Shown here: one piece after another, positions 21,451-63,882 of the stretch
Position numbering within the stretch: position 1 is the first letter of the stretch
Layout of the letters: each line of letters begins with the position of its first letter
Assembly (NCBI RefSeq): GCF_040822085.1
Contig: NZ_CP162006.1
Coordinates: 3,286,001 to 3,350,000 of the forward strand
Length of the DNA: 64,000 nt
Direction: 5' to 3'
From: Rhodoferax sp. WC2427
GTDB lineage: Bacteria > Pseudomonadota > Gammaproteobacteria > Burkholderiales > Burkholderiaceae_C
Program-made: the position numbers and the translations under genes
Notes under the pieces: model-generated
Database searches by the model: none
What the model saw: only the letters and a program-made list of their open reading frames with translations
What the model was told of the DNA's origin: nothing

Positions 21451-21558
21451 TTGAGCGCCAAAGCCCCCACTTCGCCGATTGCTCTGTCCACCGACGTGCC
21501 CGCTGCCGTCCACACGCCCATGATGGCTTGGTGCCTTCAGCAGGGAAAATTGGCCTAG
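21451..21558 (+). pseudogene. mutS: Stranded 5' end of mutS (26 host codons), cut by the prophage
   Basis: From a TTG at 21451 (with GGA about 10 nt upstream) the frame reads (M)SAKAPTSPIALSTDV, then HTPMMA, then WCLQQGKLA and stop. HTPMMA is the conserved start of MutS domain I and is identical to residues 19-24 of the intact mutS at 61,297. The last 10 codons are phage DNA beyond attL. This was the native mutS start, separated from the gene body by about 39.8 kb. It could still be transcribed and give a 35-residue peptide. TTG as the native start is inferred from the lack of an in-frame ATG. Confidence 0.85.
21511..21527 (+). other. attL
   Basis: CACACGCCCATGATGGC matches 61297-61313 at 16 of 17 bases, with 11 identical bases (CCCATGATGGC) at 21517-21527. 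It marks the junction of host mutS (left) and prophage (right). Confidence 0.88.
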
Positions 21559-21566
21559 AGGCGATA

Positions 21567-21588
21567 GAGTTACGCCAAAACCTACGCC
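21567..21588. repeat. Left-end copy of phage end repeats (possible Int/Xis arm sites)
   Basis: GAGTTACGCC (21567-21576) also occurs at 61102-61111 near attR. CTACGCC at 21582-21588 is the complement of GGCGTAG, found twice near attR (61082, 61116). Shared short motifs at both ends are expected of integrase arm-type or excisionase sites. Confidence 0.45.
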
Positions 21589-21607
21589 CGCCAAGAAACC
21601 AGTAACA

Positions 21608-21623
21608 CTGTATATTTATGCAG
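21608..21623 (+). promoter_or_regulatory. LexA (SOS) box
   Basis: CTGTATATTTATGCAG matches the LexA consensus CTGTATATATATACAG at 14 of 16 positions, and the flanks extend the symmetry (CACTG...CAGTG). It lies 80 bp inside attL and upstream of a small plus-strand ORF. The included TATATT could be its -10 element. Confidence 0.75.
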
Positions 21624-21658
21624 TGTTTTTTTATGTCTACCCCCTTCGCATCAACGGT

Positions 21659-22015
21659 TTGCGACTGACTCAGCTGACTGTGCAGACGCATGCACCCGTC
21701 TATGGCCGCCTTGTCCTTCGCAAGCCATCCCACGACCACTTTGGGCCAGACGCTCTTTGCGCCTCGCTTTACGACAAGGAAAGCAAGGAGGTGTTGCCCG
21801 AACTTGTGAATGCCAAGGTCGCCAAGATCAACGTGGGGATGCACCTCACCGGCTACGAGCAGCATGGCCGAGGGCGAAAAGGCCGGATCGACCGGCATCC
21901 ACAGTCCTGGCTTTGCGCGCTGACTCCGGCGGATCTGACACTACTTGTACAGATGATCCCGCCGCGTAGAAGCGGTGGCAGCGGGTTTGACCCGGAGGAT
22001 GACGACCGGGCGTGA
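21659..22015 (+). CDS. Small protein of unknown function behind a LexA box
   Basis: The frame is open from 21623 to 22015. No start has a clear ribosome site. TTG 21659 (LRLTQLTVQTH...) gives 118 residues; GTG 21623 lies in the LexA box and GTG 21680 is a shorter choice. The sequence looks protein-like (GRLVLRKPSHDHFGPDAL, KINVGMHLTGYEQHGRG) with an acidic C-terminus, but I do not recognise it. Its place at the phage end, convergent with the lysis genes and under LexA, resembles the position of SOS-controlled antirepressors such as Tum of phage 186 (analogy only). Confidence 0.55.
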   Translation: MRLTQLTVQTHAPVYGRLVLRKPSHDHFGPDALCASLYDKESKEVLPELVNAKVAKINVGMHLTGYEQHGRGRKGRIDRHPQSWLCALTPADLTLLVQMIPPRRSGGSGFDPEDDDRA

Positions 22016-22305: not shown

Positions 22306-22790
22306 TCTGGCCCCCCGTGCCGCGCGGCCTCAATGTCCAGGATCTGGTCCAGCTGGCTCACGGCCTCGGCGTAGCGGGCTCGGCAAACGGCGATAGCCCG
22401 GGCGGTGTCTCGGTCAGTCGAAAACCGGAGGCCTCCACCGGCGGAAGCGGCTGTAGGCGTACCCGCAGGTTCGCTGGCAGCGGCTCGCACTGGCTCACCA
22501 CCGATGGCGTTGAGCACGCCGACAGTGCCAGGATCAAGGCACTCGCGGCCAGATAGCGTTGCAATTTTTTCACGGGCGTTTCCTAGTTGGTTGGATAGTT
22601 GGGCGACCACAGCGGCGTGCTCGCCGCCTGCACCGTCGCTGTATTGATGTTGGCGGATGGTGTCGGCCCGCCGGGCGCTGGCGGCTGCCATGTCGCGCTG
22701 GGCGATGAGGCCAGCGTGGTACTTAATGCCGGTGGCCAGCCCCGCCACGAACAGCGCGAAGGCCAGCACCAGCTTGGCGGCGGTACTCAT
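22302..22790 (-). CDS. Rz-like inner-membrane spanin
   Basis: 162 residues from ATG 22790. An N-terminal membrane anchor (about 4-24, AKLVLAFALFVAGLATGIKY) is followed by a long helical periplasmic region (QRDMAAASARRADTIRQ ... VAQLSNQLGNAREKIATL). That layout, its place after the endolysin, and a nested lipoprotein gene in another frame define an Rz spanin. It overlaps the endolysin stop by 4 nt. With Rz1 it fuses inner and outer membranes at the last step of lysis. Confidence 0.85.
   Translation of the reverse strand: MSTAAKLVLAFALFVAGLATGIKYHAGLIAQRDMAAASARRADTIRQHQYSDGAGGEHAAVVAQLSNQLGNAREKIATLSGRECLDPGTVGVLNAIGGEPVRAAASEPAGTPTAASAGGGLRFSTDRDTARAIAVCRARYAEAVSQLDQILDIEAARHGGPE
22358..22573 (-). 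CDS. Rz1-like outer-membrane lipoprotein spanin, nested in Rz
   Basis: A 71-residue ORF wholly inside the Rz gene in a different frame. It has a lipoprotein signal (MKKLQRYLAASALILALSAC, lipobox LSAC with Cys20) and a mature proline-rich peptide (LQPLPPVEASG ... TETPPG), the hallmarks of Rz1. The nested arrangement is known from lambda-type phages. Confidence 0.85.
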   Translation of the reverse strand: MKKLQRYLAASALILALSACSTPSVVSQCEPLPANLRVRLQPLPPVEASGFRLTETPPGLSPFAEPATPRP

Positions 22791-23245
22791 ACCAGCGCCT
22801 GGATGCCGAGCTGCGCGCCAGCATCGGTAATCGTGATCACACGGTTGGCAGGCTTGTCGGGCACGCGGGTGCTGATGTGCACCCACTGCTTGCCGCGCAC
22901 GCCTTCCAAAATGATTTGGCCGATGCCCAGCACCGACACCTGGGGTGCCAGGGCCTTGGCAATGTCGTACGGCGTGCCGTAGCCGGGTGCCACGATGTCG
23001 GCGGCCATGCCGAGCATGTGGTCGCTGCTGGTTACCCCGCCGACGGCTTTGTTAAGCGCCGGGCAGCGGTAGCCACTGGTGACGCTGATGGGCGTGTCCA
23101 GATAGGTGCGCACGCGCTCCAGCAGGTCGGCCAACTTGCGCAGGCGGGGCAGCACCTCGGGCGGGGCGGCGTTGTCAATGCGCAGTTGTGCAGCCTTGGT
23201 GCTGGCCTGCAGCTCAGCCAGGGAGAAGTGTTCGGTGAGTTGCAT
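22787..23245 (-). CDS. Endolysin, peptidase M15 family (L-Ala-D-Glu or D,D-carboxypeptidase-like)
   Basis: 152 residues. The zinc site of the M15 family is visible: H76 and D83 in SSDHMLGMAADIV and H123 in WVHIS. The upstream SGYRCPALNKAVGG is the usual lead-in. It has no signal peptide, so it needs a holin for export. It lies directly after two membrane proteins and before Rz/Rz1, so it is the phage cell-wall hydrolase. Confidence 0.9.
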   Translation of the reverse strand: MQLTEHFSLAELQASTKAAQLRIDNAAPPEVLPRLRKLADLLERVRTYLDTPISVTSGYRCPALNKAVGGVTSSDHMLGMAADIVAPGYGTPYDIAKALAPQVSVLGIGQIILEGVRGKQWVHISTRVPDKPANRVITITDAGAQLGIQALV

Positions 23246-26030: not shown

Positions 26031-27085
26031 TAGATTAGGCCTTCAACTTCTAGGGAACAGAGGTGGTAATCGGGGTACTCGACGCTGATGGTGAAGTCTG
26101 GGAAGAACCCATACAGCAGCAGCGGCTCGTAGCCAAGTTCTTCCGCGCCGACGTACACCGCGGGCGTGGCGCGCAACGAGGCCAGCGCACGGTAAATGCC
26201 GTTAAAACGGAATTTCTCGGTGAGCACCTGGAACGTGGCGCGCTTACGGTAAGAGCGCTCAACGATGGTGGTAGCACCGAAGGCATCGGTAGCCTTGACG
26301 CTGTAGTCGATGATGGACACCTGTGGCTTGGCCAGGGTGCGGCCAACGGCGATAGTGCGACCAGGCTTGCATACGCCGCAGGCCACGCTGCCGCTGCTGG
26401 CGGTGATGCTGAGGGCCAGCTCGCAGCTTTCGAACTGGCCGGGCAAGTCGGTAAATGCAATGTCGGACCGCTGCTCGAATTCGGCAAAAAACCAGTCGTA
26501 GACCGACTCGACCACGGAGCCATCCAGGTCGATCGTGCGGCTGTAGATGATGGTGCCGCCGGGTGCATCTTTCATGGTGATGGTTGCCTGGCGGCCTACA
26601 AGCTCCATGAGGCCGATGCCAGACACGGAACCCGGGCGCAGCACCACCGCCAGGGGCGAGGCCACCGCGGTGGCGGTGCCCACGGCTGCATCGAACATGG
26701 CCCAGCGGTTATTGGCACCCACCAGGGTCCACTTAGTGGGGTCTGCCAGCGGCTGGCCGATATTGCCCGCCGCGGCAGACTGGTAGACCAGGTGGGCGAC
26801 GTTGTCTTGCACACGGTCTCCCAGGGCGTAGGTGGCGGCACCGCTGTACGCCTGGTACACAGTACAGAGCAAGCGCCACCACGAGGGGGAGCTGGCGGGC
26901 GGGTGCCCGGCATTGCCCGCCTGGAGCGACTGGTACACACTGACTAGGCCCGCCGCACCCGCTACGCTGGCATTGCTACCCGCTGCATAACTGGTGCCCG
27001 CACTGTAGGCGGCGGGGGCCAGCTCCAGCGCCGTGGTGCTGGTGAGCATGGCCGCACTGATGTCGGTCGGTTTGATAACTTTCAT
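26030..27085 (-). CDS. Distal tail protein with two carbohydrate-binding-like repeats
   Basis: 351 residues. Two consecutive segments near the N-terminus (AYSAGTSYAAGS ... YQSLQAGNAGHPP ... WWRL and AYSGAATYALGDRV ... YQSAAAGNIGQPL ... WTLV) have the pattern of small CBM5/12-like modules. The C-terminal two thirds (FAEFEQRSDIAFTDLPGQ; FRFNGIYRALASLRATPAVYVG) are unfamiliar and end in an acidic aromatic tail. Coupled to the tape-measure stop (ATGA) and the fibre gene. Probably part of the tail tip. Confidence 0.6.
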   Translation of the reverse strand: MKVIKPTDISAAMLTSTTALELAPAAYSAGTSYAAGSNASVAGAAGLVSVYQSLQAGNAGHPPASSPSWWRLLCTVYQAYSGAATYALGDRVQDNVAHLVYQSAAAGNIGQPLADPTKWTLVGANNRWAMFDAAVGTATAVASPLAVVLRPGSVSGIGLMELVGRQATITMKDAPGGTIIYSRTIDLDGSVVESVYDWFFAEFEQRSDIAFTDLPGQFESCELALSITASSGSVACGVCKPGRTIAVGRTLAKPQVSIIDYSVKATDAFGATTIVERSYRKRATFQVLTEKFRFNGIYRALASLRATPAVYVGAEELGYEPLLLYGFFPDFTISVEYPDYHLCSLEVEGLI

Positions 27086-30000
27086 GCCGTGACTACCTGG
27101 ACTGCGATGGAATTGCCATCAGGGGTGACGCGCTGCAACACCTTCGAGATGCTGGTGTTGCTGACCGCGGTGGAGCGGGTTTCAGCGCTGATATTCATGA
27201 GCAATTGCTCAACACGCAGCAGCACGGCCTGGCTGTCGCCGCTGGCAGCCGGGCCATTCAGGCGCTGCATCAGCTCGCGGTTGTCGGCCGCGGGGATGAT
27301 GCGCTCGCCCGTGTGGATCTGTGCCAGCATGTCGGTGGGCACGACGTTGGTGCCCACCGCGAAGCTGGGCACCGTGAGGCCATACTTAGCCACCAGGCTG
27401 GCATTGGTGGCCTGCAGGCTGGCCAGCATCTGCGCCTGGATGGTTTTGAGGTCCAGCGCGGTGCTGACGTTAGACGCAGCCAGATCGAGCACGGTCTTGC
27501 TGAGACCCGGTAGGGCTGCAGCGGCGGTTTGGTCGCCTGCATTGGCCTGGGCTGTGGCAATCGCAAATTGCGACTGGGCCGCGGCATAACCCACCGTGCC
27601 TGTGCCTGCCAGGACCCCGTTGATACGGTTTACCTCTGCGACGATGCTGTCGCTGGCTGACTGGAAAGCCTTCTTGATCTCAGCGGCCGCCTTGGCGGCA
27701 GCATCGGCCTGCGCCTGCAGTGCATCGGCCTGTACTTTGGCCGCAGCCTCTACGGCAGCGGCAGCGGCATCTGCCGTGGGCGTGATGGCCGCGAAAGCCC
27801 CGCTTAGGTTCAGCAGTGTCAGGTAAGTAGCCTGGCCCGATGCCGTGGCCAGGTCTTGCGAGTCCACCAGGTCACGGAAGCCGTCGCGGGTGGTGGGTAG
27901 GGCTAGGCCCAAGGTGGCAAACGAAGCCTCCAAGTCCTTTACCGTCTTGGCATTGCGCTCGGCGTCGCTGTAAAAATTTTGGTAGTAGCTGTCGAACTTG
28001 CTGCTGAATGCATCCAGGCCGCCAAACAACGTGAGCAGCGCTTGGCTGGCGCTGGTGCTGCTGTCGAGGACTTTGCTGAGATTGTTGTCGAGCCCAGCAT
28101 AGGCCTGGCTGAGGACCTTCACCTGCAAGGCTTCATTGATGCGCTGCTGCAGCAGCTTGCTGTCTGAACCAATATCCACGCCGGCCAGGTAGTCCTTGAT
28201 TTGCTGAGCGATGTTGGACTTTTCCAATCCAGCGTAAACGGCACGGATGGATTCGTCGGCAAGGGCGGCTTGCAGGGCTTCGTTGCCACGGTCTACGTTT
28301 TCAATACCGCCCAGGCGATCGCCACGGTTGTAGGCTTCTACCCCGTTGACGGTGCTAGCCACCTGCAGTTGGGTTCGCGCAGTGCCCTGGGGATCCATGG
28401 CAAATGCCACTCCAGACAGGAGCTGGCTGGTGGTATCACCCAATTGTGCAGCGGTAACTTTAAATCCGGCCTCGATGCTGCTGGTCACGGCCTTGGCGGC
28501 ATCCGAGGTGGAGGCATCTGCCAGGCTGGTGACCCCGGTACCAGCATAAGAGCCTTGTTTGGGCCCGCCGCCCTTACCGCCAAAGATGGAATAGGCGGCA
28601 ATTGCCGCAAGGGCTACCCAGCCATAAACGGGAATAGCGCTCAGTGCCCCGGTAACGCCTCCGGCGACCGTTCCGGTTGCTGCGGTGCCAGACGCTACCC
28701 CTGCAGCTGCAGCAGCCTCCGCGGCAGATGCACCGGCGGCGGCAGCAGCTGCAGATGCTTCCGTACCCGCTGCGATCACGGCAGCAGAACCGGACGATGC
28801 ACCCAGACCCAGAGCCGTAGAGGCATAGCTCAAAGCCCCACCGACCATCCCGGTCCCGTTCGTGATGCCGGTATAGGCCGAATACAAACTGGAGGCGTTG
28901 CTGGCGGTGTTGAGCAGTCCACCCGCGCCGCCCGAGCCACTTATGCCCAGTGCCGAGGTCACGCCTTGCGCAACCGGGTTGACCACGGCACTGATGATTG
29001 GGCGCAGCACCAGAGTCTTGAACATATTGACCAGGGTGTCACGCAGGTTTTGGGCGAAGCCTTTGCCAGCCTCAAAACCGCGCAGCAGTGCATCGGTCAG
29101 CGACTGGTTGATGCTGTCGGCAGTTTTGTTCCACTCGTCGGCAACCACCTTGGCCACCGCGACCTGCTTGTCTTGTAGCGCCGTAGCATTCACGGTGTCG
29201 CGCAGCGCTTGTTTGTCGGCTTCGGTGGCACCGGAGCGGTCAATGGCGGCGATCTGCTTGGCGACTTCAAGATCCACCTTGCGGATGGCCAGGGTCTTCT
29301 GCCGTTCCAGCGTCGTCATGCCTGCCAGCTTGGCTTCATCGGCATAGGCGACAGCTTCTTCACCCACGGTGCGGGCATATTCCTGCGCCTGCTGGTTCAA
29401 CGCTTTGAAGTCGGCCACCTGGGCCTGGGTAACCAGGCGCGCCTGCTCGGCGGCTTTGAGGCGCAGCGCCGACACATAGGCAGGATCGTAGGAGCCCTCG
29501 CTGCCGCCTTCGACTTCGGCCAGTTTGGCATTGATCAGGGCCAGACGGTACTGCTCAATGGCCACCTTGCCCGCACCCCACATGGCATTGGAGGCAGCGA
29601 GTTCATCGGCCTGGGTGCCGAGGGTTTGGGCTGATTTTTGGGTCTGGTCGATCAGGGCAAGATAGGCCTCTTTGGACTTCTTCAGGCCGTCGATGCGCAG
29701 CAGCTCACCTTCTACCTGTTTATCCACAGCAGCCTGGCTTTCGGCTGCGGCCAGCGAGCGCATTTTGTCGGCACGTGCCAGGCCGCTGATGCTGGTGGTC
29801 AGGTCTTGCTTGATTTTGATGACCAGCTTCTCGCCGTCGGTCAGCTTCAAGGCTTCAGCACCCTGGGTGCGCAGCAGGTTGAGGTAGCGCTGTTGCTCAA
29901 GGGTGCGGGCCTTGATGCCAGCTAGTTCGGATTCACCGCCGGAGGCTGGGCTGGTGTACTTCTTCTCGATATTGGCAATTTGGGTGCGCAGGTCTTTTTC

Positions 30001-31512
30001 AGTGATCAGACCCGCGGCGATGAGCGCCTGGCCTTCGGTCGTCGCCTTGGCGATCTCTTTTTGGCGTTTGGAGGCATTGGATTCGAACTGGTCGATTTGC
30101 TTATCCCACGCAAATTTCTGCTCTGCCAGTTTGACGCGCTGTGCGTCCGATTCGGCCGTCGATTTTTGTACGACGTTCAGCCGCTCGATCAATGCAATTT
30201 GCGCGATGAGTGACTGGCGTTCTTTTTCGTAGTCCGCTTTTGCCACTGGCAGGCCAGGTGCGCCTGCGGAATTCAGCCGTTCCAGCGAGGCCTTGAGGCT
30301 TGCCAGTTGGTCAGAGCCGGTTTGCGGGCGGCCAACCCCCAACATGGCATCCCAGGCCTTGGCGGCAAAGGAGCCCACACCCTTCCAGGCAATTTCAAGC
30401 CCACCCAAGTTTTCCGTGATTTGCTTGGACCGGCTGCCAATGGCATCGGCGTAAGCATTCTGGGCTACCCGGGCGGCCTCGGTGGTGCGCCCCTGCTCTT
30501 CCAGGGATTTGATCTGCTCGTAGGTGGTCAGCGTCAGGTAATGCAGCGATTCATTGAGCTTGAGGGTGGCTTGCAGCGGGGCTTTCCCCAGATCTGTGAA
30601 GGCCTGGGCAGTCTTGTCCAGGGATTGGCCAATGGCGCGCTCCGCGTCAATGGCCACAGCGGCAAACTTTTGCAAGTCGGCGCGGCCAACAGCGCCCGAT
30701 TGCACCAACGATGCGAGCGCCTCGGCCGATTTGCCTTGGGTGTAGTTGCCCTCGGCCAGCGCCCTGGACATGTCTTGCAACTGGCTTGTGGTGGTGCCTG
30801 CAACATTGCCCGACAGAATCAAGGCCTTGGTGTAGTTCTCTGCCTCCTTTGAGCCGTTGTAGTACGCCAGAGCCACCAGGCCGACGGCAGCGGCGGCTAA
30901 GGCGTACGGGTTGACCAGATCCAGGACGTAGCCGCCCAGGGCCTTGGCGGCGTTGCCTGCACCACCGAACATGTCTTTGAGCTGGCCACCCTGCTGCAGC
31001 AGGACGGTGAGGGGCTTTTGGCCGCCCTGCAAGCCGACGATGATGTCGGTGAACTGGGCGGGTATGCCACGCAGGGCGGCGGCTGTTTGCGCAGCAGAGA
31101 TGCCCATGGTGCCGAGGGCTGCGCTACCGCCCGCGATAGCCTGCGCGGCTTGGAGCTGCTTGGCCTTGAGCGCATCGAGCTGGTCCAGGTAGGGCTTGAT
31201 AATGTCGAGCTTAACCCCACGCTGGCGGGCCAGTTCTTCCTGGTAAGCACGCTCGCCCTTGCCAGCGGCCTCGGTCACCGCGATCTTGCGCTGCAGGCTG
31301 TTGACCTGGCTGCGGGTGGCCGCATCTACTTTGGCGGCAGCTGCAGCGGCACCGTCACCGGATTTTGCCAAGGCATCGCTGGAAGCCTTGCCCGCCTCGG
31401 TAACGGCAGCACGGAAACCGCTGATGGACTTTTTGGCGGTGCCGATGCCCGCCTCGACACCCGTGGCATCGGCACTGATGTCGATGACAGCAGAGAGGTC
31501 TTTTTCAGCCAT
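27082..31512 (-). CDS. Tail tape measure protein
   Basis: 1,476 residues, the longest gene of the phage and therefore a guide to tail length (roughly 0.2 micrometre, using about 1.5 angstrom per residue). N-terminus with heptad-rich helical sequence (GIGTAKKSISGFRAAVTEAGK), a hydrophobic stretch near 200-215 (YALAAAAVGLVALAYYN), extensive coiled coil, and an alanine/glycine-rich hydrophobic zone around 860-990 that may contact the inner membrane. The C-terminal SFAVGTNVVPTDMLAQIHTGERIIPA motif is typical of lambda gpH-like tape measures. Confidence 0.93.
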   Translation of the reverse strand: MAEKDLSAVIDISADATGVEAGIGTAKKSISGFRAAVTEAGKASSDALAKSGDGAAAAAAKVDAATRSQVNSLQRKIAVTEAAGKGERAYQEELARQRGVKLDIIKPYLDQLDALKAKQLQAAQAIAGGSAALGTMGISAAQTAAALRGIPAQFTDIIVGLQGGQKPLTVLLQQGGQLKDMFGGAGNAAKALGGYVLDLVNPYALAAAAVGLVALAYYNGSKEAENYTKALILSGNVAGTTTSQLQDMSRALAEGNYTQGKSAEALASLVQSGAVGRADLQKFAAVAIDAERAIGQSLDKTAQAFTDLGKAPLQATLKLNESLHYLTLTTYEQIKSLEEQGRTTEAARVAQNAYADAIGSRSKQITENLGGLEIAWKGVGSFAAKAWDAMLGVGRPQTGSDQLASLKASLERLNSAGAPGLPVAKADYEKERQSLIAQIALIERLNVVQKSTAESDAQRVKLAEQKFAWDKQIDQFESNASKRQKEIAKATTEGQALIAAGLITEKDLRTQIANIEKKYTSPASGGESELAGIKARTLEQQRYLNLLRTQGAEALKLTDGEKLVIKIKQDLTTSISGLARADKMRSLAAAESQAAVDKQVEGELLRIDGLKKSKEAYLALIDQTQKSAQTLGTQADELAASNAMWGAGKVAIEQYRLALINAKLAEVEGGSEGSYDPAYVSALRLKAAEQARLVTQAQVADFKALNQQAQEYARTVGEEAVAYADEAKLAGMTTLERQKTLAIRKVDLEVAKQIAAIDRSGATEADKQALRDTVNATALQDKQVAVAKVVADEWNKTADSINQSLTDALLRGFEAGKGFAQNLRDTLVNMFKTLVLRPIISAVVNPVAQGVTSALGISGSGGAGGLLNTASNASSLYSAYTGITNGTGMVGGALSYASTALGLGASSGSAAVIAAGTEASAAAAAAGASAAEAAAAAGVASGTAATGTVAGGVTGALSAIPVYGWVALAAIAAYSIFGGKGGGPKQGSYAGTGVTSLADASTSDAAKAVTSSIEAGFKVTAAQLGDTTSQLLSGVAFAMDPQGTARTQLQVASTVNGVEAYNRGDRLGGIENVDRGNEALQAALADESIRAVYAGLEKSNIAQQIKDYLAGVDIGSDSKLLQQRINEALQVKVLSQAYAGLDNNLSKVLDSSTSASQALLTLFGGLDAFSSKFDSYYQNFYSDAERNAKTVKDLEASFATLGLALPTTRDGFRDLVDSQDLATASGQATYLTLLNLSGAFAAITPTADAAAAAVEAAAKVQADALQAQADAAAKAAAEIKKAFQSASDSIVAEVNRINGVLAGTGTVGYAAAQSQFAIATAQANAGDQTAAAALPGLSKTVLDLAASNVSTALDLKTIQAQMLASLQATNASLVAKYGLTVPSFAVGTNVVPTDMLAQIHTGERIIPAADNRELMQRLNGPAASGDSQAVLLRVEQLLMNISAETRSTAVSNTSISKVLQRVTPDGNSIAVQVVTA

Positions 31513-33080: not shown

Positions 33081-33200
33081 GCTGGGGGAAACTGGGTAGC
33101 CTTGCGGCCTATGTCACGCGGCTGGGGGAAACTGGGTAGCCTTGCGGCCTATGTCACGCGGCTGGGGGAAACTGGGTAGCCTTGCGGCCTATGTCACGCG
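33081..33200. repeat. Perfect tandem repeat, 3 x 40 bp
   Basis: Three identical 40-bp units at 33081-33120, 33121-33160 and 33161-33200, each starting GCTGGGGGAAACTGGGTAGC. The rightmost copy contains the last codons and stop of the DUF3168-like gene. The lack of any mismatch between units points to recent expansion, or an assembly artefact. Confidence 0.95.
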
Positions 33201-34312: not shown

Positions 34313-34313
34313 T

Positions 34314-51892: not shown

Positions 51893-51903
51893 CCCCCCAT
51901 TAA

Positions 51904-51970
51904 ATCACGAACGTGATAACAAAACAATCACCAAAGTGATTAATATTTCTAGTCAAATCACTTTCGTGAT
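51904..51970. promoter_or_regulatory. Operator cluster O1-O3 between cro-like and cI-like genes
   Basis: Three copies of ATCAC-N4-GTGAT: 51904-51917 (N4 = GAAC), 51927-51940 (CAAA), 51957-51970 (TTTC). Centres are 23 and 30 bp apart. The third covers the GTG used as the cI start (51966). Confidence 0.88.
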
Positions 51971-54543: not shown

Positions 54544-54710
54544 ACGCCCTGACCAAATGGCTGGTCTCCGCCCTGGCGGCCCTGCTGCTGGGCTCTACCT
54601 ACCTGCTGGACGGCCCCAGCGCCATGGATGTCGAGCGCGATACCGCAACCGATGTGCAGACGGCCCAGCTCGACGCACAGCAGTCCAACCGCGCCGAGGT
54701 GCAGCCATGA
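54540..54710 (+). CDS. Small membrane peptide
   Basis: 56 residues from ATG 54540 (MNALTKWLVSALAALLLGSTYLL): one membrane segment followed by an acidic soluble end (DVERDTATDVQTAQLD). Coupled by 4-nt overlaps to genes on both sides. Confidence 0.6.
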   Translation: MNALTKWLVSALAALLLGSTYLLDGPSAMDVERDTATDVQTAQLDAQQSNRAEVQP

Positions 54711-55069
54711 ACGCATTTGTCCACACGTCTGCACTGCAGCCCGAAGCGGATCTGTTTGGCGCCGCACCCACCCACCGCGAGGCCCCTCACGTGGTGCTGG
54801 ATGCCACGTTGACCCGCAATGCAGAGGTGCGCAACAAGCCGGTGGGCGATGGGGATCACGTGTTCCCCGTGCTCAGCCTGGAGCTGCGCACCGCTACCGA
54901 CCTGCAGCAGACCCTGCACGTCGAGCAGGTGTTTTCCGAGTCCACCCGCCACCTGGCGGAAAAGCTGGCCGCCACCCTCAAGCGCGGCGACCACGTCCGC
55001 ATTACCTCCACCCTCATCCACATGCACGTGCGCCTGCCGCACGCCCAAACCATCGAGCGCCTCCAATGA
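54707..55069 (+). CDS. Hypothetical early protein, possible single-strand-binding-like fold
   Basis: 120 residues. DGDHVFPVLSLELRTATDLQQTLHVEQVF followed by LKRGDHVRITSTLIHMHVRLPHAQTI reads like an OB-type beta barrel with a solvent-exposed basic strand. That would fit a small DNA-binding replication accessory protein, but there is no firm family match. Overlaps with neighbours are 4 nt on both sides. Confidence 0.6.
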   Translation: MNAFVHTSALQPEADLFGAAPTHREAPHVVLDATLTRNAEVRNKPVGDGDHVFPVLSLELRTATDLQQTLHVEQVFSESTRHLAEKLAATLKRGDHVRITSTLIHMHVRLPHAQTIERLQ

Positions 55070-55728
55070 CTACCACCGCACCCTTCATTGCCCACTACCC
55101 CCGCATCATCGGCCTCACCGGCCTGATGGGCAGCGGCAAAGACACCATCGCCGAGATCCTGCGCAAGCAGCGCAACTACGTGCCCGTGGCCTTTGCCGAC
55201 CCGCTGCGCCAGGAAATCATGGACGCGTTTGGCATCCCCATTGAGGTGCTGACCGACCGCGCCACCAAAGAAGCTGCCACGCCCCAGCTGGCGCTATCGC
55301 GCTGCCGCGACTTCGACTTCGAGGCCTGCATGATCAACTACAACAAAACGCCGCTGCTGGACATGACGCTGCCGCGCTCGCCCCGCTGGATCATGCAGCG
55401 CTGGGGCACCGAATACCGCCGCGCCCAGGACCCGCACTACTGGACCAAGGCCATGAACCGGCGACTGAGCCACCTGAGCCAGCAGGGGCAATGCATAGCC
55501 GTAACCGACGTGCGCTTCATGAACGAGGCCCTCCTGGTGCGCGAACACGGCGGCTACATCTGGCAGGTGAACCGCGGCTTCACCATCGCTACGCCAGGTG
55601 CGCACAAGAGTGAAACCGATGGCGGTCAGTTCTGGCCCGATCGGACCATCGACAACAGCGGCGACCTGGCGCAGCTGCAGAGCCGCGTGCTGGCTTTAGT
55701 GCCTGCCGTCACTGGAGTTACAGCATGA
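55066..55728 (+). CDS. Deoxynucleoside monophosphate kinase
   Basis: 220 residues from ATG 55066. P-loop GLTGLMGSGKDTIAEIL, then VAFADPLRQEIMDAFGI and SPRWIMQRWGTEYRR, and IAVTDVRFMNEALLVREHGG, the pattern of phage dNMP kinases such as T4 gp1. It supplies dNDPs for phage replication. Confidence 0.85.
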   Translation: MTTTAPFIAHYPRIIGLTGLMGSGKDTIAEILRKQRNYVPVAFADPLRQEIMDAFGIPIEVLTDRATKEAATPQLALSRCRDFDFEACMINYNKTPLLDMTLPRSPRWIMQRWGTEYRRAQDPHYWTKAMNRRLSHLSQQGQCIAVTDVRFMNEALLVREHGGYIWQVNRGFTIATPGAHKSETDGGQFWPDRTIDNSGDLAQLQSRVLALVPAVTGVTA

Positions 55729-56006
55729 GCAACACCAAAATGAAAGGCCCACCCAAACCCAATCGCCAACCGCGATTAGTTCGGCAGCACGAGCAACTCG
55801 ACTTAAATGACCTCCCCAATGTCATCGTGGCTATGTTGGGCAACCTTGAGACAGCTTTGATATCGGCTGGCGCAGTAGCAAACAAAGACTACTACTGGCC
55901 GATGCTCATCGAAGGTGCAATCAAGCTGGCGGCCGAAGCGGGTTTCCTCAAAGACACAAACGTGATTCTTGAGGACATTGAATCTTCACCAGGCTCCTTC
56001 CTATGA
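55725..56006 (+). CDS. Hypothetical early protein
   Basis: 93 residues. A basic N-terminus (MKGPPKPNRQPRLVRQHEQL) and an amphipathic helical rest (NVIVAMLGNLETALISAGAVANKDYYWPML). Coupled by 4-nt overlaps between the kinase and ParB-like genes. Not recognised. Confidence 0.65.
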   Translation: MSNTKMKGPPKPNRQPRLVRQHEQLDLNDLPNVIVAMLGNLETALISAGAVANKDYYWPMLIEGAIKLAAEAGFLKDTNVILEDIESSPGSFL

Positions 56007-58123
56007 ACGCCCCCACCTTCGCCGACCTCCCCCTGTCGGCCATCACCCCCAGCCTGACCAATCCGCGCAAGACCTTCCATCCTGCGCGCCTGGCAGAGCT
56101 TACCGCCAGCATTGCCTCCAGCGGCGTGCACCAGCCCATACTGGTGCGGCCGCTGCCTGCGTCGCGCCTTGAAGACACCTCGAAGACAAGCCCGCGCCCC
56201 GAATACGAACTTGTCGCCGGTGAGCGCCGCTACCGTGCCAGCCTGGCCGCCAAGCGCGACACCATCCCGGCCATGGTGCGCGACCTCACCGACGACCAGG
56301 TGCTTGAAATCCAGATTGTGGAAAACCTCCAGCGCGAGGACATCGCCGCCCTGGAAGAAGCCGAGGGCTACGAGCGCCTGATGCAGCACAGCAGCATCAC
56401 CGCCGAGCAGGTTGGCGACAAGATTGGCAAAAGCCGCAGCTACGTCTACGCCCGCCTCAAGCTGCTGGACCTGTGCCAGGAAGCGCGCAGCAGTTTGCGT
56501 GATGGCAGCATCGACTCCAGCCGCGCCCTGCTGATTGCCCGCATCCCGGACCACAAGCTGCAGATCAAGGCCATCGAGGATATCCTGATGGGCGTTCACG
56601 ACTACAGCACGGGCGAAACTGCACCCATGGGGCAACGCGCCGCTGCGGCCTACATCCAGCGTAAATACATGCTCAAGCTGGACACGGCCAAGTTCGACAT
56701 TCTGCGTGTGGACCTTGTGCCCAACGCAGGTAGCTGCAAGACCTGCGCCAAGCGTACCGGCCACGAGCCCGACTTGTTTGCCGACGTCAAGAATGCAGAT
56801 GTGTGCACCGATCCACCCTGCTTTCACAAGAAAGAAGAAGCTCACAACGCCACCATGGTCGCCGAGGCCCAGGCCAAGGGCCAAACCATCATCGCGGGCA
56901 AGGAAGCCCAGGAGCTGATGCCCCAGCACAGCTACAACGCCAAGTTCAAAGGCTACCGCCGACTGGACGATGCAGCCGACAGCCCCACCAACCAGCCGCT
57001 GCGCAAGATCATCGGCAAGCAAATGGACGTGGAAGGCATTGCCCAGGTGATGATCGAGCACCCCTACTCTAAAGGCACGCTGGTTGCGGTGCTGGCTAAC
57101 GAGGTGGTGCTGCGCCTGCTCAAAACCGTGCAGGGCCAGGCAGCAGCAGCCACCAAGACGGTGGACAAAGAAGTCCAGCAGTTCGCCGACGAGAAAGCAG
57201 CAAAAGCCCAGGCCAAGGCTACAGAGCAGTTTGAGCAAGGTTGGCGCGACACGCTGCTGTCGGATACCTGGCATGCCGTCAATAAAGACGATGTGCCGGT
57301 AATGTCCAGCATGGAGTTTTGCCGCTATTTGGCCCGCCGCGAAGCCATCAACATCCACCAGGACAACGCCGACGCGCTGTGCAAGCTGCTGGACCTGGGC
57401 AAGGTGTCTTCGCACAGCGCGGTGGTGGACTTTGTCAAAACCACCGACCGCCCCGACCTGGCGCTGGCCTTGCTGGTAATGCAGCGCGATTCCGGCCGCA
57501 ACCACTATGCCCATGGCCGTCCGCCGAACGAGGGCCTGATGCTGGTGGCTGAAATCGCCTTTGGTGACAAGCTGAAATCAGTGATCAAGGACATAAAAGC
57601 CGAGGCGCAAGAGCGCTTTTTGCCGAAACCCAAAGCCGCAGAACCGCTTCTACCCCACTCCCCTGCTGCGCAAGCTGAGGGGGAGGCGGGGGGAGGTAAG
57701 AGCAAAAACGCGGATGGGTCCAAAAAAACGCGCCCCGCTGCGCCTGCGGCGAAAGCCAAGACTACTGCGGAGGAAGCCGCTCTAGGCATCGCCCAGGCGA
57801 TGCAAGGCATTGAGTCCGCCGCACTGGCGGCGGAGGGGTCCGATCTGGGCGCTGACGCGCAGGGAATTGATGCCACCGCACTTGCGGTGGCGGGCACGTC
57901 TGAACGGCCCGCACAGGAACCATCGGCGGCGGCGATTGAGATTGGTCAACGTGTGCGGGTGCTGGTGGGTGTGAAAGGCCCCAACGCCAAGTACGTGGGC
58001 AAGGAAGGCCTGGTGCGCAGTCGATTGGGGGCGGCCTGGATGCTGATGTTTACAGGCAAGGGCAGCAAAGTGGGTTCGATGGCCAGCTTTGATCGGAATG
58101 AGCTCGAGGTGGTGGAATCATGA
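56003..58123 (+). CDS. Large ParB-like nuclease/partition-domain protein with C-terminal KOW-like domain
   Basis: 706 residues. The N-terminus is a ParB/Spo0J CTPase-type domain: SLTNPRKTFHPARLAELTASI, GVHQPILVRPLP, YELVAGERRYRASLAAK, IVENLQREDIAALEEAEGY. An HTH follows (EQVGDKIGKSRSYVYARLKLLDL). A cysteine motif (SCKTCAKRTGHEPD ... CTDPPCF) may bind zinc. A long helical region, a low-complexity linker and a final KOW-like beta domain (GQRVRVLVGVKGPNAKYVGKEGLV) complete it. There is no ParA, so partition is unlikely; it is probably a phage DNA-binding regulator or replication factor. Confidence 0.88.
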   Translation: MNAPTFADLPLSAITPSLTNPRKTFHPARLAELTASIASSGVHQPILVRPLPASRLEDTSKTSPRPEYELVAGERRYRASLAAKRDTIPAMVRDLTDDQVLEIQIVENLQREDIAALEEAEGYERLMQHSSITAEQVGDKIGKSRSYVYARLKLLDLCQEARSSLRDGSIDSSRALLIARIPDHKLQIKAIEDILMGVHDYSTGETAPMGQRAAAAYIQRKYMLKLDTAKFDILRVDLVPNAGSCKTCAKRTGHEPDLFADVKNADVCTDPPCFHKKEEAHNATMVAEAQAKGQTIIAGKEAQELMPQHSYNAKFKGYRRLDDAADSPTNQPLRKIIGKQMDVEGIAQVMIEHPYSKGTLVAVLANEVVLRLLKTVQGQAAAATKTVDKEVQQFADEKAAKAQAKATEQFEQGWRDTLLSDTWHAVNKDDVPVMSSMEFCRYLARREAINIHQDNADALCKLLDLGKVSSHSAVVDFVKTTDRPDLALALLVMQRDSGRNHYAHGRPPNEGLMLVAEIAFGDKLKSVIKDIKAEAQERFLPKPKAAEPLLPHSPAAQAEGEAGGGKSKNADGSKKTRPAAPAAKAKTTAEEAALGIAQAMQGIESAALAAEGSDLGADAQGIDATALAVAGTSERPAQEPSAAAIEIGQRVRVLVGVKGPNAKYVGKEGLVRSRLGAAWMLMFTGKGSKVGSMASFDRNELEVVES

Positions 58124-59047: not shown

Positions 59048-59579
59048 CATTAGCCGCCTTGCGCGACAGGCTGGGTTGCAAGGCCTGGCCACCGATGTGG
59101 TCTGCCAATGGTCTGAAATTGAGCACTTCGCCGCCCTGGTCGAAGCCTTCATTCGCGCCGCGCAGCCAGCAGTGCCAGCATCTGGGGTGCAAGGGGGTGA
59201 GCCGCCAGAGGGCTTACCGTACGGGATCATCGACCCCGACTATGCCAAGGTATTCACCACGGCGCGCATCATTGCCTGGCAATATGGCTTTGCCCTGGTG
59301 ATGCACGGTAGTTTCACGCGGGATCTGGACCTTCTGCTGGTGCCATGGGAGAAACACGCTTGCGCAGATGGCGCGGAGTGTGTTGTGGCAATGATTGCCG
59401 ATGCCTGTGGCCTGACTATCAACGGCCAACCGGGCATCAAACCCCACGGTCGGTTGGCCCACACGCTTCTGTTTCCGGGCTTCGCCGACCCGCGATGGGT
59501 GGACTTGTCTGTGATGCCCATACCCGCCGCCCAGCCAGCAGAGGTGCGGCCTGCAAAGCTGGAAGGCAAAGCCGTATGA
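59034..59579 (+). CDS. Hypothetical early protein with nucleotidyltransferase-like core
   Basis: 181 residues from ATG 59034 (MNRADISRLARQAGL). A stretch with GFALVMHGSFTRDLDLLLVPW looks like the GS-x-(D/E)-D-L-D core of nucleotidyltransferase-fold proteins, followed by TINGQPGIKPHGRLAHTLLFPG. It may be a degenerate nucleotidyltransferase, but this is from motif resemblance only. Overlaps its neighbours by 14 and 4 nt. Confidence 0.6.
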   Translation: MNRADISRLARQAGLQGLATDVVCQWSEIEHFAALVEAFIRAAQPAVPASGVQGGEPPEGLPYGIIDPDYAKVFTTARIIAWQYGFALVMHGSFTRDLDLLLVPWEKHACADGAECVVAMIADACGLTINGQPGIKPHGRLAHTLLFPGFADPRWVDLSVMPIPAAQPAEVRPAKLEGKAV

Positions 59580-59854
59580 GTATCGCCATCAATATCCGCC
59601 CAGCAGCCCTGGAGCCGCCTGATGCTGCGACCTATGTCGCCCTGTCGGTGACGACCGTGGAGCGCCTGGTGCGGGAAGGTAAGTTCCCGAAGCCACGGCA
59701 ACTGTCTGGCCGCCGCGTAGGCTACCTGGTGCGTGAGTTGGATTCGTGGCTAGACGACTGCCCGGTGTCGGACCTGCTGCCACCGCCCAACACTAGCCGA
59801 CGCGCGGCAAAGGGGTCGATGCCAGGACTTCAAGATGCTCAGCCAGGCGTGTGA
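59576..59854 (+). CDS. AlpA-like HTH protein, probable excisionase
   Basis: 92 residues from ATG 59576. The segment ALSVTTVERLVREGKFPKPRQLSGRRVGYLVRELDSWL is a MerR/AlpA/Xis-type winged helix. It ends the rightward early operon and its 3' end overlaps the end of the convergent integrase gene by 62 bp. That position supports an excisionase or integrase-control role. Confidence 0.8.
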   Translation: MSIAINIRPAALEPPDAATYVALSVTTVERLVREGKFPKPRQLSGRRVGYLVRELDSWLDDCPVSDLLPPPNTSRRAAKGSMPGLQDAQPGV

Positions 59855-61070
59855 GCCACAACCGCCGCTCTTTGTCGTAGGAGTGCCGGTTGTACACCGC
59901 CTTGATTCCCTCGGGCATGTGCCCCAATAAGGCCTCGGCGACCTCGTCGGGGCACCCCATCGCGGCCAGCATGGTGCGCACCGTGCGTCGCAAGTCGTGT
60001 GGGGACCAGTGCGTCACGGTCAGCCTGGGCCTAACGTTTTTCGGCGTGGTCTTTGAATAGGGCTGGTGGTAGTGCACAGCCGTTTGTACCGCTTTTTGGC
60101 TGAGGTAGCCCTTTGCCGCAGCAGATGGAAACAGAAACCCCTTTGACAGAAGCATACGCCGTCGCACAACCGCCTCGGCACGCCCACCCAGGGGGACGCG
60201 TAGATCAGTGGCGAGCTCGTGCCTGGCGTTCTTGGTTTTTGCCTTTGGCAGCGTCCACCACAGGCCGTCCACTTCTTCTGTGATCTCGCAGTGCTCCATT
60301 TGCACCACCTCGGCCCCACGCGATCCGGTCCACAGGTAGAGGGTCAGCACGTCGCAAATCGCTTTGCTGAAGTTCGGTAGCCACCGAATGAGCTCACCGG
60401 CCTCAGCATCGGACAGAAACCGCTTTGTCACCCCAATATGCTTGCCTTCGATGCGCTTGCCCTTGCTCTTGAGTCGGCCGCGCATGATCAAGCGCCACCA
60501 GTTGGGCGTATCTTCCGGCAGCCTGCCCGCATCGAGCACGTAGTCCCAGGCCGCCCCGAGCTCTTGGCGGATCTGCTGGGCCTGTACAGGCGTTTCTACC
60601 AGACCTTCGAGCAAGGAGAACGCCTGCGACCGCTTGAGGGTCGCAGCTTCCTGGTCAGCAATGGGCGCGAGAAGCTTTTTAAACAGGCGCTCGACCTCGG
60701 CCGCACCCTTGGCCTTGCGGCGTAGCTTTATGTGCCCGGCAATGTAATCGCGGCACACTGCAGCCACGGTGTACGTCTCGGCTTTCGGGGCGGCCGCTTT
60801 GGAGCGGGCGGCCTTCTTCTCTTTGGACAGGTCCACACCGCTGTCGCGCTTCGAGCGCAAGACCGCCCATTCGGTGGCGGCCGCCACTGCCGACATGGCT
60901 GGCCAGCGCCCAATTGCCACCTGGCGCATGTTGCCGTCGGTGGGCGATTTGTACCGGTAGATCCATGTGCGCGTTGTTGCGCTGGCCTCCAGGCGCAAGC
61001 CTGGACAGCCGTCCACGATAATGCGCTCACCAGGCTTCAAAAGCTTCGCAGTACGAGCATCAAACTGCAT
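59793..61070 (-). CDS. int: Tyrosine-type integrase
   Basis: 425 residues. The N-terminal arm-binding domain is DUF4102-like (GCPGLRLEASATTRTWIYRYK), followed by a core-binding helical domain and the catalytic domain: R251 (WTGSRGAEVV), H358-xx-R361 (HWSPHDLRRTVRTMLA), H384 (LLGHMPEG) and a tyrosine near 393-398 (AVYNRHSY). It catalyses insertion at mutS. It starts 173 bp from the mutS start and is convergent with the AlpA-like gene. Confidence 0.95.
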   Translation of the reverse strand: MQFDARTAKLLKPGERIIVDGCPGLRLEASATTRTWIYRYKSPTDGNMRQVAIGRWPAMSAVAAATEWAVLRSKRDSGVDLSKEKKAARSKAAAPKAETYTVAAVCRDYIAGHIKLRRKAKGAAEVERLFKKLLAPIADQEAATLKRSQAFSLLEGLVETPVQAQQIRQELGAAWDYVLDAGRLPEDTPNWWRLIMRGRLKSKGKRIEGKHIGVTKRFLSDAEAGELIRWLPNFSKAICDVLTLYLWTGSRGAEVVQMEHCEITEEVDGLWWTLPKAKTKNARHELATDLRVPLGGRAEAVVRRRMLLSKGFLFPSAAAKGYLSQKAVQTAVHYHQPYSKTTPKNVRPRLTVTHWSPHDLRRTVRTMLAAMGCPDEVAEALLGHMPEGIKAVYNRHSYDKERRLWLTRLAEHLEVLASTPLPRVG

Positions 61071-61081
61071 TCACGCCTCAC

Positions 61082-61122
61082 GGCGTAGGTTTACCGGATT
61101 CGAGTTACGCCGCCCGGCGTAG
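61082..61122. repeat. Right-end copies of phage end repeats (possible Int/Xis sites)
   Basis: GGCGTAG at 61082-61088 and 61116-61122 flank GAGTTACGCC at 61102-61111. The same motifs lie near attL at 21567-21588. CTACGCT at 61148-61154 is a diverged inverted copy. Confidence 0.45.
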
Positions 61123-61124
61123 CA

Positions 61125-61242
61125 TTGCAAAATTCAGTACCAATTTCCTACGCTAGCGCCGGAGTGTAGTGCTGTTTAGTGCTGCTTCGTGAAGACTTAG
61201 CAATTCCGCCACGCCAGACCTTTCCCTAATCAAATCAACAAC
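61125..61242 (+). promoter_or_regulatory. Phage-supplied upstream region of mutS
   Basis: The only sequence between int and mutS. TTGCAA (61125-61130) with an 18-bp spacer to TACGCT (61149-61154) is a weak sigma70-like promoter. TAGTGCTG occurs twice at exactly 10-bp spacing (61167-61174, 61177-61184), on the same face of the helix, as for a cooperative binding protein. No clear ribosome-binding site precedes the ATG at 61243. Confidence 0.4.
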
Positions 61243-63882
61243 ATGGGCACTGTCACCCAATCAGATCAAGTACTTGCGAAAGTAGACTTTTCGGGGCACA
61301 CCCCCATGATGGCCCAGTACTTGGCCATCAAGGCCGAGTACCCCGACACGCTGGTTTTCTACCGCATGGGCGATTTCTACGAGCTGTTTTTCAGCGATGC
61401 CGAGAAAGCCACCGCCCTGCTCGACATCACCCTGACCAAGCGCGGCCACACGGCAGGCGTGCCTATTCCCATGTGCGGCGTGCCCTTCCATGCACTGGAG
61501 GGCTATCTGGGCAAGCTCATCAAGCTGGGCGAGTCGGTGGCGATTTGCGAGCAGGTGGGCGAGGTCACGGGCAAGGGGCCGGTGGAACGCAAGGTGGTGC
61601 GCGTGGTCACCCCCGGCACGCTCACCGATGCCGAGCTACTGTCCGACAAGACCGAGTCCGTGCTGCTGGCCATCCACCAGGGGCCGCGCAATACCTGCGG
61701 CCTGGCCTGGCTGAGCGTGACGCGCGCCGAAATCCACCTGGCCGAGTGCCCCAGCGACGAGCTGGAAGCCTGGGTCACCCGCATCGCCCCCAGCGAACTG
61801 CTGCACAGCGCCGACGCCAGCCACAGCCTGGAGCAGCGCATCCAGGCCCTGAAGCGCGCCACCGCGCCCGGCGTGGCCTTGTCCACCACCGCCCGCCCGG
61901 CCTGGCAGTTCGATGCCGCCCTGGGCCAGCGCAAGCTGCTGGAGCAACTGCACGCCGCCACCCTGGCCGCCTGGCAGGCGGACGACCTGCCCCAGGCCCA
62001 CGCGGCGGCGGCCGCCTTGCTGACCTTTGCCGAACACACCCAGGGCCGCGCCCTGTCGCACGTGCAAACCATCCGGGTGCAAAAAGGCGATGCCGGCATC
62101 CACCTGCCGCTCTCCACCCGGCGCAACCTGGAGCTGACGCAAACCCTGCGCGGCGAGGACAAACCCACGCTGTTCTCGCTGCTGGACACCTGCAGCACCA
62201 GCATGGGCAGCCGGGCCCTGAAGCGCTGGCTGCTGGAACCCCAGCGCGACCGCAGCGAAGCCACGCTGCGCCTGCAGGCCATTGCCACCTTGCGTGAAGC
62301 CGGGCAGGGCCAGCGCCTGCGCGAGCAGCTCAAGGGTAGCGGCGATGTAGAACGCATCAGCGCCCGCATCGCGCTGCGCCAGGTGCGCCCGCGCGAGCTG
62401 GTGGCCTTGCAGTACACGCTACAAAAAGCAGAGCTGCTCACGCCCTTCATACCAGCGCAAACGGCACTTTTGACCCAGATTTCTGCAGCACTGCGGCCGC
62501 CCGAGGGCTGTGCGGCCCTGCTGCAAAGCGCCATCCTGGACGAACCCGCTGCCCTGGTGCGCGATGGCGGCGTGATCAACCGCGGCTTCGATGCCGAGCT
62601 CGACGAACTGCGCGACATCCAGACCAACTGCGACGCGTTTTTGCTCGACCTGGAAACCCGCGAAAAAGCCCGCACCGGCATTGCCAACCTGCGGGTGCAG
62701 TTCAACAAGGTGCATGGCTTCTACATCGAAGTCACCCAGGGCCAGATCGACAAGGTGCCCGCCGACTACCGCCGCCGCCAGACCTTGAAAAACGCCGAGC
62801 GCTACATCACCCCCGAGCTGAAGGCCTTTGAAGACAAGGCCCTGAGTGCCCAGGAGCGCGCCCTGGCCCGCGAGAAATGGCTGTTCGAGCAGGTGCTGGA
62901 TGCCCTGCAGGCCTTTGTGCCCGCCTTGGGCCAACTGGCCTACGCCCTGGCCGCGCTGGACGTGCTGTGCACCCTGGCCGAGCGCTCGCTGACCCTCAAC
63001 TGGTGCGCCCCGGTGTTCGCCAAAGAGCCCTGCATCGCCATCCAGGGCGGCCGCCACCCGGTGGTGGAGGCCCGCCTTTCTGAGCTCAGTAACGCCAGCT
63101 TCATCGCCAACGACACCGCCCTGGGCCACCGCCAGCGCATGCAGATCATCACCGGGCCCAACATGGGCGGTAAATCAACCTATATGCGCCAGGTGGCCAC
63201 CATCGTGCTGCTGGCCAGCATGGGCAGCTTTGTGCCCGCAACCGCCTGCCGCCTGGGGCCCATCGACGCCATCCACACCCGCATCGGCGCGGCCGACGAC
63301 CTGGCCAACGCGCAATCCACCTTCATGGTGGAGATGACCGAGGCCGCGCAGATTTTGCACAGCGCCACCGCCCACAGCCTGGTGCTGATGGACGAGATTG
63401 GCCGCGGCACCTCCACCTTCGACGGCCTGGCCCTGGCCAGCGGCATTGCCGCGCATTTGCACGACAAGACCCAGGCCTTCTGCCTGTTTGCCACCCACTA
63501 TTTCGAGCTGACCGAGTTCCCGGCCCAGCACCATGGCGCGGTGAACATGCATGTGAGCGCCGCCGAGTCGGGCCGCGATATCGTGTTTCTGCACGAGCTG
63601 CAGCCCGGCCCGGCCAGCCGCAGCTACGGCATCCAGGTGGCCCGCCTGGCCGGCATGCCCACCGCGGTGCTGAACCATGCGCGCCACACCCTGGCCGCGC
63701 TGGAAGACCACGCGCTGGGCCACCAGGCGCAGGTGGATCTGTTTGCGCCGCCGCCCGCCGCCGAGCCGGCTTCTGTAGGGGTGGTGGAAGCCGCCGTGGC
63801 CGCGTTGGACCCCGACACGATGAGCCCCCGCGAGGCCATGGAAGCCATCTATCAACTTAAGAAGTTGTTACAAATGTATTAA
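61243..63882 (+). CDS. mutS: DNA mismatch repair protein MutS, with phage-encoded start
   Basis: 879 residues, full family length. Residues 1-18 ([18 protein letters not shown]) are encoded by prophage DNA; from H19 (HTPMMAQYL) the protein is host MutS. The mismatch-contact motif is F45-x-E47 in MGDFYELFF. The ATPase has [13 protein letters not shown] (Walker A), [15 protein letters not shown] (Walker B/signature) and [10 protein letters not shown]. The replaced tail lies before the folded domain I, so activity is probably kept. Expression now depends on phage sequence. A copy of the dispersed host repeat lies in frame near residue 392-409. Confidence 0.95.
61297..61313 (+). other. attR
   Basis: CACACCCCCATGATGGC, 16 of 17 bases identical to attL at 21511-21527; codes for HTPMMA of MutS. 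The one differing base (G to C) is a silent third position if read ACG/ACC. Confidence 0.88.
62416..62469 (+). repeat. Copy of dispersed host repeat, inside mutS
   Basis: ACGCTACAAAAAGCAGAGCTGCTCACGCC followed by ATACCAGCGCAAACGGC follows the order of blocks of the intergenic copies. It is read in frame in the lever/core region of MutS. Confidence 0.45.

Follow-up and report, generated by a model that had tools for sequence, protein, structure and literature searches.

The element inside mutS

The window considered here, i.e., the whole stretch of 64,000 nucleotides from Rhodoferax sp. WC2427 (NZ_CP162006.1, positions 3,286,001 to 3,350,000), carries an element with the gene set of a temperate tailed phage, inserted near the 5' end of the mismatch-repair gene mutS. 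To its left lies an orphan mutS stub (21451-21528), in which a TTG and the following SAKAPTSPIALSTDVPAAVHTPMMA give 26 codons before the frame enters phage DNA and meets a stop. To its right lies a full-length mutS (61243-63882, plus strand) that opens with an ATG and 18 phage-derived codons and encodes 879 amino acids. The two junctions, at 21511-21527 and 61297-61313, share the 17-bp sequence CACAC[G/C]CCCATGATGGC, in which one position differs. The exact core CCCATGATGGC is found inside the HTPMMA codons at 21517 and 61303, for an element length of 39,786 bp. The features of the two junctions are as follows.

21451..21528, plus strand: orphaned native-type mutS start, TTG to HTPMMA (SAKAP-type N-terminus in the same-genus loci L002, L003 and L004)
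21511..21527, plus strand: attL core CACACGCCCATGATGGC (where both flank matches to the empty site in L003 overlap, over 17 bp; core position)
61243..61296, plus strand: phage-supplied mutS start, 18 codons (the only in-frame ATG, GTG or TTG upstream of HTPMM)
61297..61313, plus strand: attR core CACACCCCCATGATGGC (comparison with L003; core position)
61243..63882, plus strand: MutS of the lysogen, 879 amino acids (TIGR01070 and Pfam)

The MutS encoded in the lysogen is intact, with 971.8 bits to TIGR01070 (cut-off 641.7) and five Pfam MutS domains, and it is the single mutS match (E <= 0.001) in this single-contig genome of 4.78 Mb. Rejoining the flanks in silico yields a continuous in-frame mutS of 881 amino acids from the TTG, and closing the phage into a circle yields an attP in which the leader reads through the core as 33 residues before a stop. 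An initial annotation, made from the letters alone, had placed a prophage with a replacement start inside mutS; both mutS starts are indeed present as it described, and its end points, 21511 and 61313, match the junctions. Its stub of 26 codons ending in HTPMMA stands as well, save that the 26th codon ends at 21528 and not at 21527. Likewise borne out are a replacement N-terminus and upstream region carried by the phage (ATG at 61243, 18 codons in frame) and the in-frame return of the host start upon excision, the latter from the in silico join of the flanks.

Seven same-genus genomes were searched with MutS. Four of them (L002, L003, L004 and L005) have a TTG at the position of the stub start; the first three share the SAKAP-type N-terminus, that of L005 is shorter and different, and L004 has an extra in-frame ATG a few codons upstream of the TTG. 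Of the remaining genomes, two (G001 and G006) yielded C-terminal pieces only, and in the third, G004 (L021), mutS opens with a different ATG. The left flank of the element, including a LysR-type gene, matches L003 at 88% (1,093 bp, up to L003:1523), while the match of the right flank is at 92% (2,462 bp, from L003:1507 on). These matches overlap by exactly the 17-bp repeat; hence nothing lies between them, and the uninterrupted site of L003 is collinear with both flanks. This empty site and the junction repeat support the earlier proposal that mutS is the attachment site. Because the same-genus loci L002 to L005 show another start, 61243 is ruled out as the native mutS start. Conservation of the TTG instead indicates that 21451 is probably the true native start, as initially proposed and in line with the SAKAP N-termini of related genomes and the uninterrupted L003.

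The element holds integrase, repressor, packaging, head, connector, tail and lysis genes, as a temperate tailed phage does. The scan against PHROGs covered 45 window proteins, a subset of the open reading frames, among which no sheath or baseplate family was matched, which suggests a siphovirus. The earlier description as a 39.8-kb siphophage is thus right in size and in the main tailed-phage modules, its siphovirus type being deduced from the lack of such a match. The start of the integrase gene (int) lies 172 bp from the new mutS ATG. The host gene upstream of the element and the assigned phage genes are as follows.

20425..21369, plus strand: host LysR-type regulator, directly upstream of the native mutS start (Pfam HTH_1 and LysR_substrate; flank collinear in L003)
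21623..22015, plus strand: open reading frame of 130 amino acids behind the LexA-like box described below, start codon uncertain (no family found)
22787..23245, minus strand: endolysin (phrog_894, 4e-39)
27082..31512, minus strand: tail tape-measure protein (phrog_25966, 2e-227)
33194..34889, minus strand: connectors, i.e., tail terminator, Neck1/tail completion, head closure and head-tail adaptor (profile matches)
40645-42030, minus strand: major head protein (profile match)
42042-42752, minus strand: head maturation protease (profile match)
42727-44088, minus strand: portal (profile match)
44135-45862, minus strand: terminase large subunit (profile match)
45847-46443, minus strand: terminase small subunit (profile match)
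46567..46929, minus strand: HNH endonuclease (phrog_144, 1e-26)
48089..50719, minus strand: primase/helicase with VapE-like domain (Pfam and PHROGs)
51024..51494, minus strand: CII-like regulator (phrog_101, 6e-17)
51795..52610, plus strand: CI-type repressor with HTH and S24 peptidase domains (HTH_3, Peptidase_S24; phrog_4, 2e-33)
54628..55728, plus strand: deoxynucleoside monophosphate kinase-like protein (phrog_139, 1e-45)
56003..58123, plus strand: ParB-like partition protein (profile matches)
59345..59854, plus strand: AlpA-type regulator, likely the excisionase (Phage_AlpA, 3e-7; phrog_66 excisionase, 4e-8)
59793..61070, minus strand: tyrosine integrase, 425 amino acids, divergent from mutS (Arm-DNA-bind_3, Phage_integrase)

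Phage ends and mutS start cassettes in relatives

Both ends of the element carry short motifs resembling integrase arm-type sites, and a LexA-like box is found at the left end.

21566-21575, minus strand: likely second arm-type site AGAGTTACGC (found by eye, three mismatches)
21578-21587, minus strand: likely integrase arm-type site AAACCTACGC, exact (one of only two exact copies in the window)
21606..21625, plus strand: LexA-like box CACTGTATATTTATGCAGTG, facing the open reading frame of 130 amino acids (16/20 to the consensus)
61083..61126, plus strand: likely integrase arm-type sites GCGTAGGTTT at 61083 and GCGTAGCATT at 61117, within the 172 bp that separate int from mutS

Of the two exact copies of the ten-base motif GCGTAGGTTT in the 64-kb window, one lies at the left end of the element (21578, minus) and the other at the right end (61083, plus). 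Within 170 bp of int, one to four copies at up to two mismatches occur in 27/27 integrase relatives (the window itself, genomes, the Acidovorax phage Aval and the isolated relative KS9), against means of 0.08-0.20 in shuffles; the motif was absent at the same tolerance and distance in two E. coli elements tested. Paired left sites 12 bp apart also recur in L101, L138, L155 and Aval. According to this distribution, the GCGTAGGTTT-type motifs are most likely the arm-binding sites of the integrase. On the right, they share the stretch between int and mutS that must hold any phage promoter for mutS.

The phage Aval (OP131589), described as a temperate isolated phage with turbid plaques (PMC11619371), encodes an integrase 58% identical to that of the window. 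Divergent from its int lies MQEKTEPNQQLAGIPISEHTPMMH followed by a stop, i.e., an ATG leader ending in EHTPMMH, then arm-type sites and, at the same phage end as in the window, a LexA-like box of 16/20. The word mutS has 0 occurrences in the main text of the article on this phage (PMC11619371). A scan of IMG/VR gave 233 integrase relatives, of which 80 were kept; 48 have fewer than 50 bases upstream of int and the other 32 were read. The HTPM site is present in 19/32 of these viral loci: ten run into mutS, one runs off its contig, and eight stop within 11-29 codons. In the last eight, no mutS follows once the leader has passed the core and ended, which is how an attP outside a host chromosome would look; these contigs probably represent free phage DNA. 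At least one left arm site is found in 6/8, 56-57 or 68-69 bases away from where the HTPM codons begin, the corresponding distances being 67 in the window and 55 and 67 in Aval; L120 and L157 have no left arm site at two mismatches and are weaker attP cases. As read from the DNA, an isolated phage has the start cassette, and so do viral contigs that lack mutS, which makes the replacement start a standing part of such phage genomes.

The leaders were then compared as a set of 44, comprising 25 from genomes, Aval and E. coli and 19 from viral loci, with L047 left out. An ATG, GTG or TTG in frame with the motif precedes any stop in 43/44 of them, versus 4/44 and 15/44 in the other two frames; after removal of near-copies the counts are 36/37 versus 4/37 and 15/37. 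In composition shuffles of the first 25 leaders, such a start appeared in 10.7 on average and in 18 at most, against 24 observed. Since the leaders are related, these counts do not represent independent events. In L036, L038 and L043 (Burkholderia, Pseudothauera and Pigmentiphaga), the 232-bp leader is 98.7-100% identical, while the mutS genes behind it, compared over their first 900 bp, share 69% identity in two of the pairs; the third pair reaches 78%, over 349 alignable bases. At the sequence level these three loci are natural leader swaps before clearly different mutS genes. Integrase and leader are nearly identical in them across Burkholderiaceae, Zoogloeaceae and Alcaligenaceae, which suggests recent cross-family transfer.

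Integrase targets and other users of the mutS site

Among integrase relatives in the set of genome contigs, 12/18 lie at mutS, five at a DeoR-type regulator (L039-L041, L045 and L046), and one (L048) is decayed. Eleven of the 12 mutS loci are within about 320 bp of the gene; L047, with a damaged integrase, is about 2 kb away. In L048 (Methylomonas fluvii scaffold2), the decayed integrase accompanies a chromosomal attP-like leader ending in HTPMMQERMYIVFQGDY and a stop, not joined to mutS. Across 399 family genomes (E <= 1e-60), 24 integrase copies were found in 23 genomes: ten at mutS, including that of the window; seven at the 5' end of a D-isomer 2-hydroxyacid dehydrogenase gene (L056, L057, L063, L065, L066, L068 and L072); six at tRNA-Gly(ccc), whose 5' end points towards int (L062, L064, L067 and L069-L071); and one at a contig end. 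The names of the DeoR and dehydrogenase targets were checked with Pfam on one representative each (L040 and L056). The arm-type sites occur at all target types and hence belong to the integrase rather than to mutS.

In a tree of 39 integrases, each of the three non-mutS targets arises only once, with full support, among the rows included. The mutS users are spread over the tree, with three changes of target, at least two of them forced by well-supported branches. The tree leaves out L071 (misplaced start, 14 amino acids extracted), L050 (same identity to the window as L031 and taken as a near-copy), L078 (unrelated integrase), L081 (a fragment of 249 amino acids) and L045-L048 (partial integrases). 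That mutS was the ancestral target is only suggested by this topology, because the sample was seeded with a mutS-using integrase.

The same site also appears to be used in E. coli. A 401-bp probe over the K-12 mutS start matched 5,547 places in 5,369 E. coli records, with at most two per genome, i.e., about 178 records with two sites. An integrase gene or fragment stands beside mutS in 3/3 of the loci inspected, namely two double-site records (isolate 58, L078; ET665, L079) and strain 536 (L081). The window integrase is 30.4% identical to that of ET665 over 434 amino acids (E 9.7e-50) and 27.6% identical to the fragment of 536 over 174 amino acids (E 1.1e-9), and is not similar to that of isolate 58 (E 0.52). 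Because the E. coli integrases are related weakly or not at all to that of the window, more than one integrase lineage appears to use the mutS site. The leaders of ET665 and 536 (MSTIENLDS and MSTPENFDA) resemble the native MutS start MSAIENFDA. In NZ_CP025268 (H60), a K-12 derivative, only the first 145 probe bases match, probably through a laboratory disruption of mutS.

Known systems, alternatives and meaning

The arrangement was described by Chu et al. in mBio (2017; PMC5296598), who reported elements of 4 to >150 kb at the mutS HTPMMQQ motif in hundreds of Beta- and Gammaproteobacteria. In the parts of that article covered here, these elements supply a promoter and a start for mutS, some appear to be prophages (Burkholderia multivorans CF2 being named), and polymerase chain reaction demonstrated scarless excision with the frame kept in E. 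coli 536, P. putida F1 and B. multivorans CF2; no excision was detected for the mutS element of E. norvegicus FF-162. The same parts already raise the idea that mutS could be switched between two regulatory regions. The window element resembles this class in the mutS codons used, the stranded host start, the element-supplied start and upstream region, and the integrase beside mutS: it shows the HTPMMQQ insertion, an orphan start as in relatives, a new in-frame start and an adjacent integrase. The initial annotation had presented an intact phage that keeps the gene open with its own start as a different version of the known elements; this claim falls, since prophages and scarless excision are part of the 2017 report, and the element is a new example of a published arrangement, not a new kind of system. 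Chu et al. began from integrated elements and sequenced attP after excision, and free start-carrying phages are not discussed in the parts covered. Among the literature matches listed, judged by titles and abstract openings and with subscription journals mostly outside the scope, no later study of elements inside mutS was found.

Other systems are more distant. Excision of the Vibrio 12B01 element leaves a 2-bp frameshift scar (PMC5296598, in the parts covered), whereas none is expected for the window element. Aval shares with it a related integrase, an attP with an ATG leader ending in EHTPMMH and a stop, arm-type sites and an equally placed LexA-like box, and differs in being reported as a myovirus (PMC11619371). 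SpyCI of Streptococcus pyogenes is likewise of phage type and occupies the 5' end of a gene for mismatch repair; however, according to the portions consulted it is a chromosomal island at mutL and most tested carriers are mutators (PMC3430984), whereas the window holds a full phage, with structural and packaging genes, that targets mutS and keeps it open. SXT/R391 elements integrate in the 5' part of a conserved gene, prfC, and restore a functional gene, but they are conjugative and involve no mismatch repair (PMC12210918, as far as covered).

In the explanation we favor, with a probability of about 0.93, a temperate tailed phage would use its tyrosine integrase to enter mutS at the conserved HTPMM codons, close to the 5' end of the gene, and keep the gene readable by means of its own start cassette. 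The attP would hold a ready-made mutS 5' end: 18 codons that open with ATG and lead in frame into HTPMM, preceded by an upstream region. Integration would part the host start from the gene and fuse the phage start onto it, giving a full-length MutS with another N-terminus, and excision between the cores would, as in the in silico join, restore the host start in frame. At the level of the DNA, the host start has been separated, a phage start fused on and a full-length MutS encoded; as far as the protein sequence, support for the mechanism is good. The phage most likely retains this start because loss of MutS would be costly to a lysogen, so that the cassette would make a conserved target safe to use.

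Several observations weigh against this explanation. The HTPM site is missing in 13/32 viral loci with enough upstream DNA, and KS9 has no HTPMM on the int side; the integrase family is therefore not tied to mutS. L060 is the sole leader of the 44 with no in-frame start between int and HTPMM. Its MutS may start inside the motif or be impaired, or the position given for its int start may be wrong. In a simple scan, no sigma-70-like promoter was found upstream of either mutS start (0.2 expected in shuffles), a null result of little weight in this kind of host. Between int and the new ATG, at 61148-61169, there is a weak terminator-like match.

A lysogeny-dependent control of mutation rate, in which the phage upstream region would alter mutS expression and SOS excision would swap it back as a mutator switch, appears unlikely; as a hypothesis it has already appeared in print for elements of this class. 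Upstream region and start codon are indeed exchanged, TTG to ATG, and likely arm sites occupy the int-mutS gap, in which any phage promoter driving mutS would lie. A response to SOS is made plausible by the left-end LexA-like box, whose score is such that 0/60 Markov sequences reach 15, and by the S24 repressor. However, the box lies at the far end and faces away from mutS, and the same stretch can be read as an intrinsic terminator (stem 21604-21627, then T's). The strict LexA consensus gave no match in the scan at up to three mismatches, the loose CTGT-N9-CAG pattern is at chance level (nine found versus 10.4 expected), and in the scored scan of host genes a UvrD-like gene (named by eye) reached 16/20, lexA 14 and 13, and recA only 12. 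For these reasons SOS control is a lead and not a result. Moreover, mutS is open and in frame in both states, unlike in Vibrio 12B01, and a near-universal in-frame start fits the protection of MutS better than switching.

Alternatively, the prophage could be fixed, with mutS permanently under the phage start and the stub a relic. The attL and attR cores differ at 1/17 bp, and the undetected excision in E. norvegicus FF-162 (PMC5296598, in the parts covered) offers a precedent. Yet integrase, AlpA, repressor, packaging, head, tail and endolysin frames are open, the arm sites are present, and no broken gene was seen among the open reading frames looked at, a part of the total, all of which makes a fixed state quite improbable. 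Still more doubtful is a phage leader that under-expresses MutS and makes the lysogen a constitutive weak mutator, in the manner of SpyCI at mutL but with no growth-phase switching. No Shine-Dalgarno sequence is visible by eye before 61243, and the leader combines the lack of a recognised promoter with the terminator-like match; the host TTG, however, also has neither a strong Shine-Dalgarno sequence visible by eye nor a recognised promoter, and the start is kept in 43/44 leaders. An assembly artefact or gene duplication, which two HTPMM copies 39.8 kb apart might evoke, can be dismissed: the one mutS match in a single-contig genome and the empty site of L003 rule out the artefact, the junctions follow phage att anatomy, and the same insertion occurs in other genomes.

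Under the favored explanation, i.e., a phage that enters mutS and supplies its start, the window offers a clean example, in a complete genome with an empty-site relative, of a phage that uses a DNA-repair gene as its attachment site and leaves the gene unbroken, and the integrase tree gives several separate targets for studying how integrases change sites. The published idea that such elements re-wire mutS becomes directly testable. It is conceivable, though hardly probable, that phages of this group keep the mutS start cassette on purpose and that, because of its place among arm sites and opposite the int start, phage regulators determine how much MutS a lysogen makes; if so, lysogeny and SOS induction would change the mutation and recombination rates of the host on the schedule of the phage.

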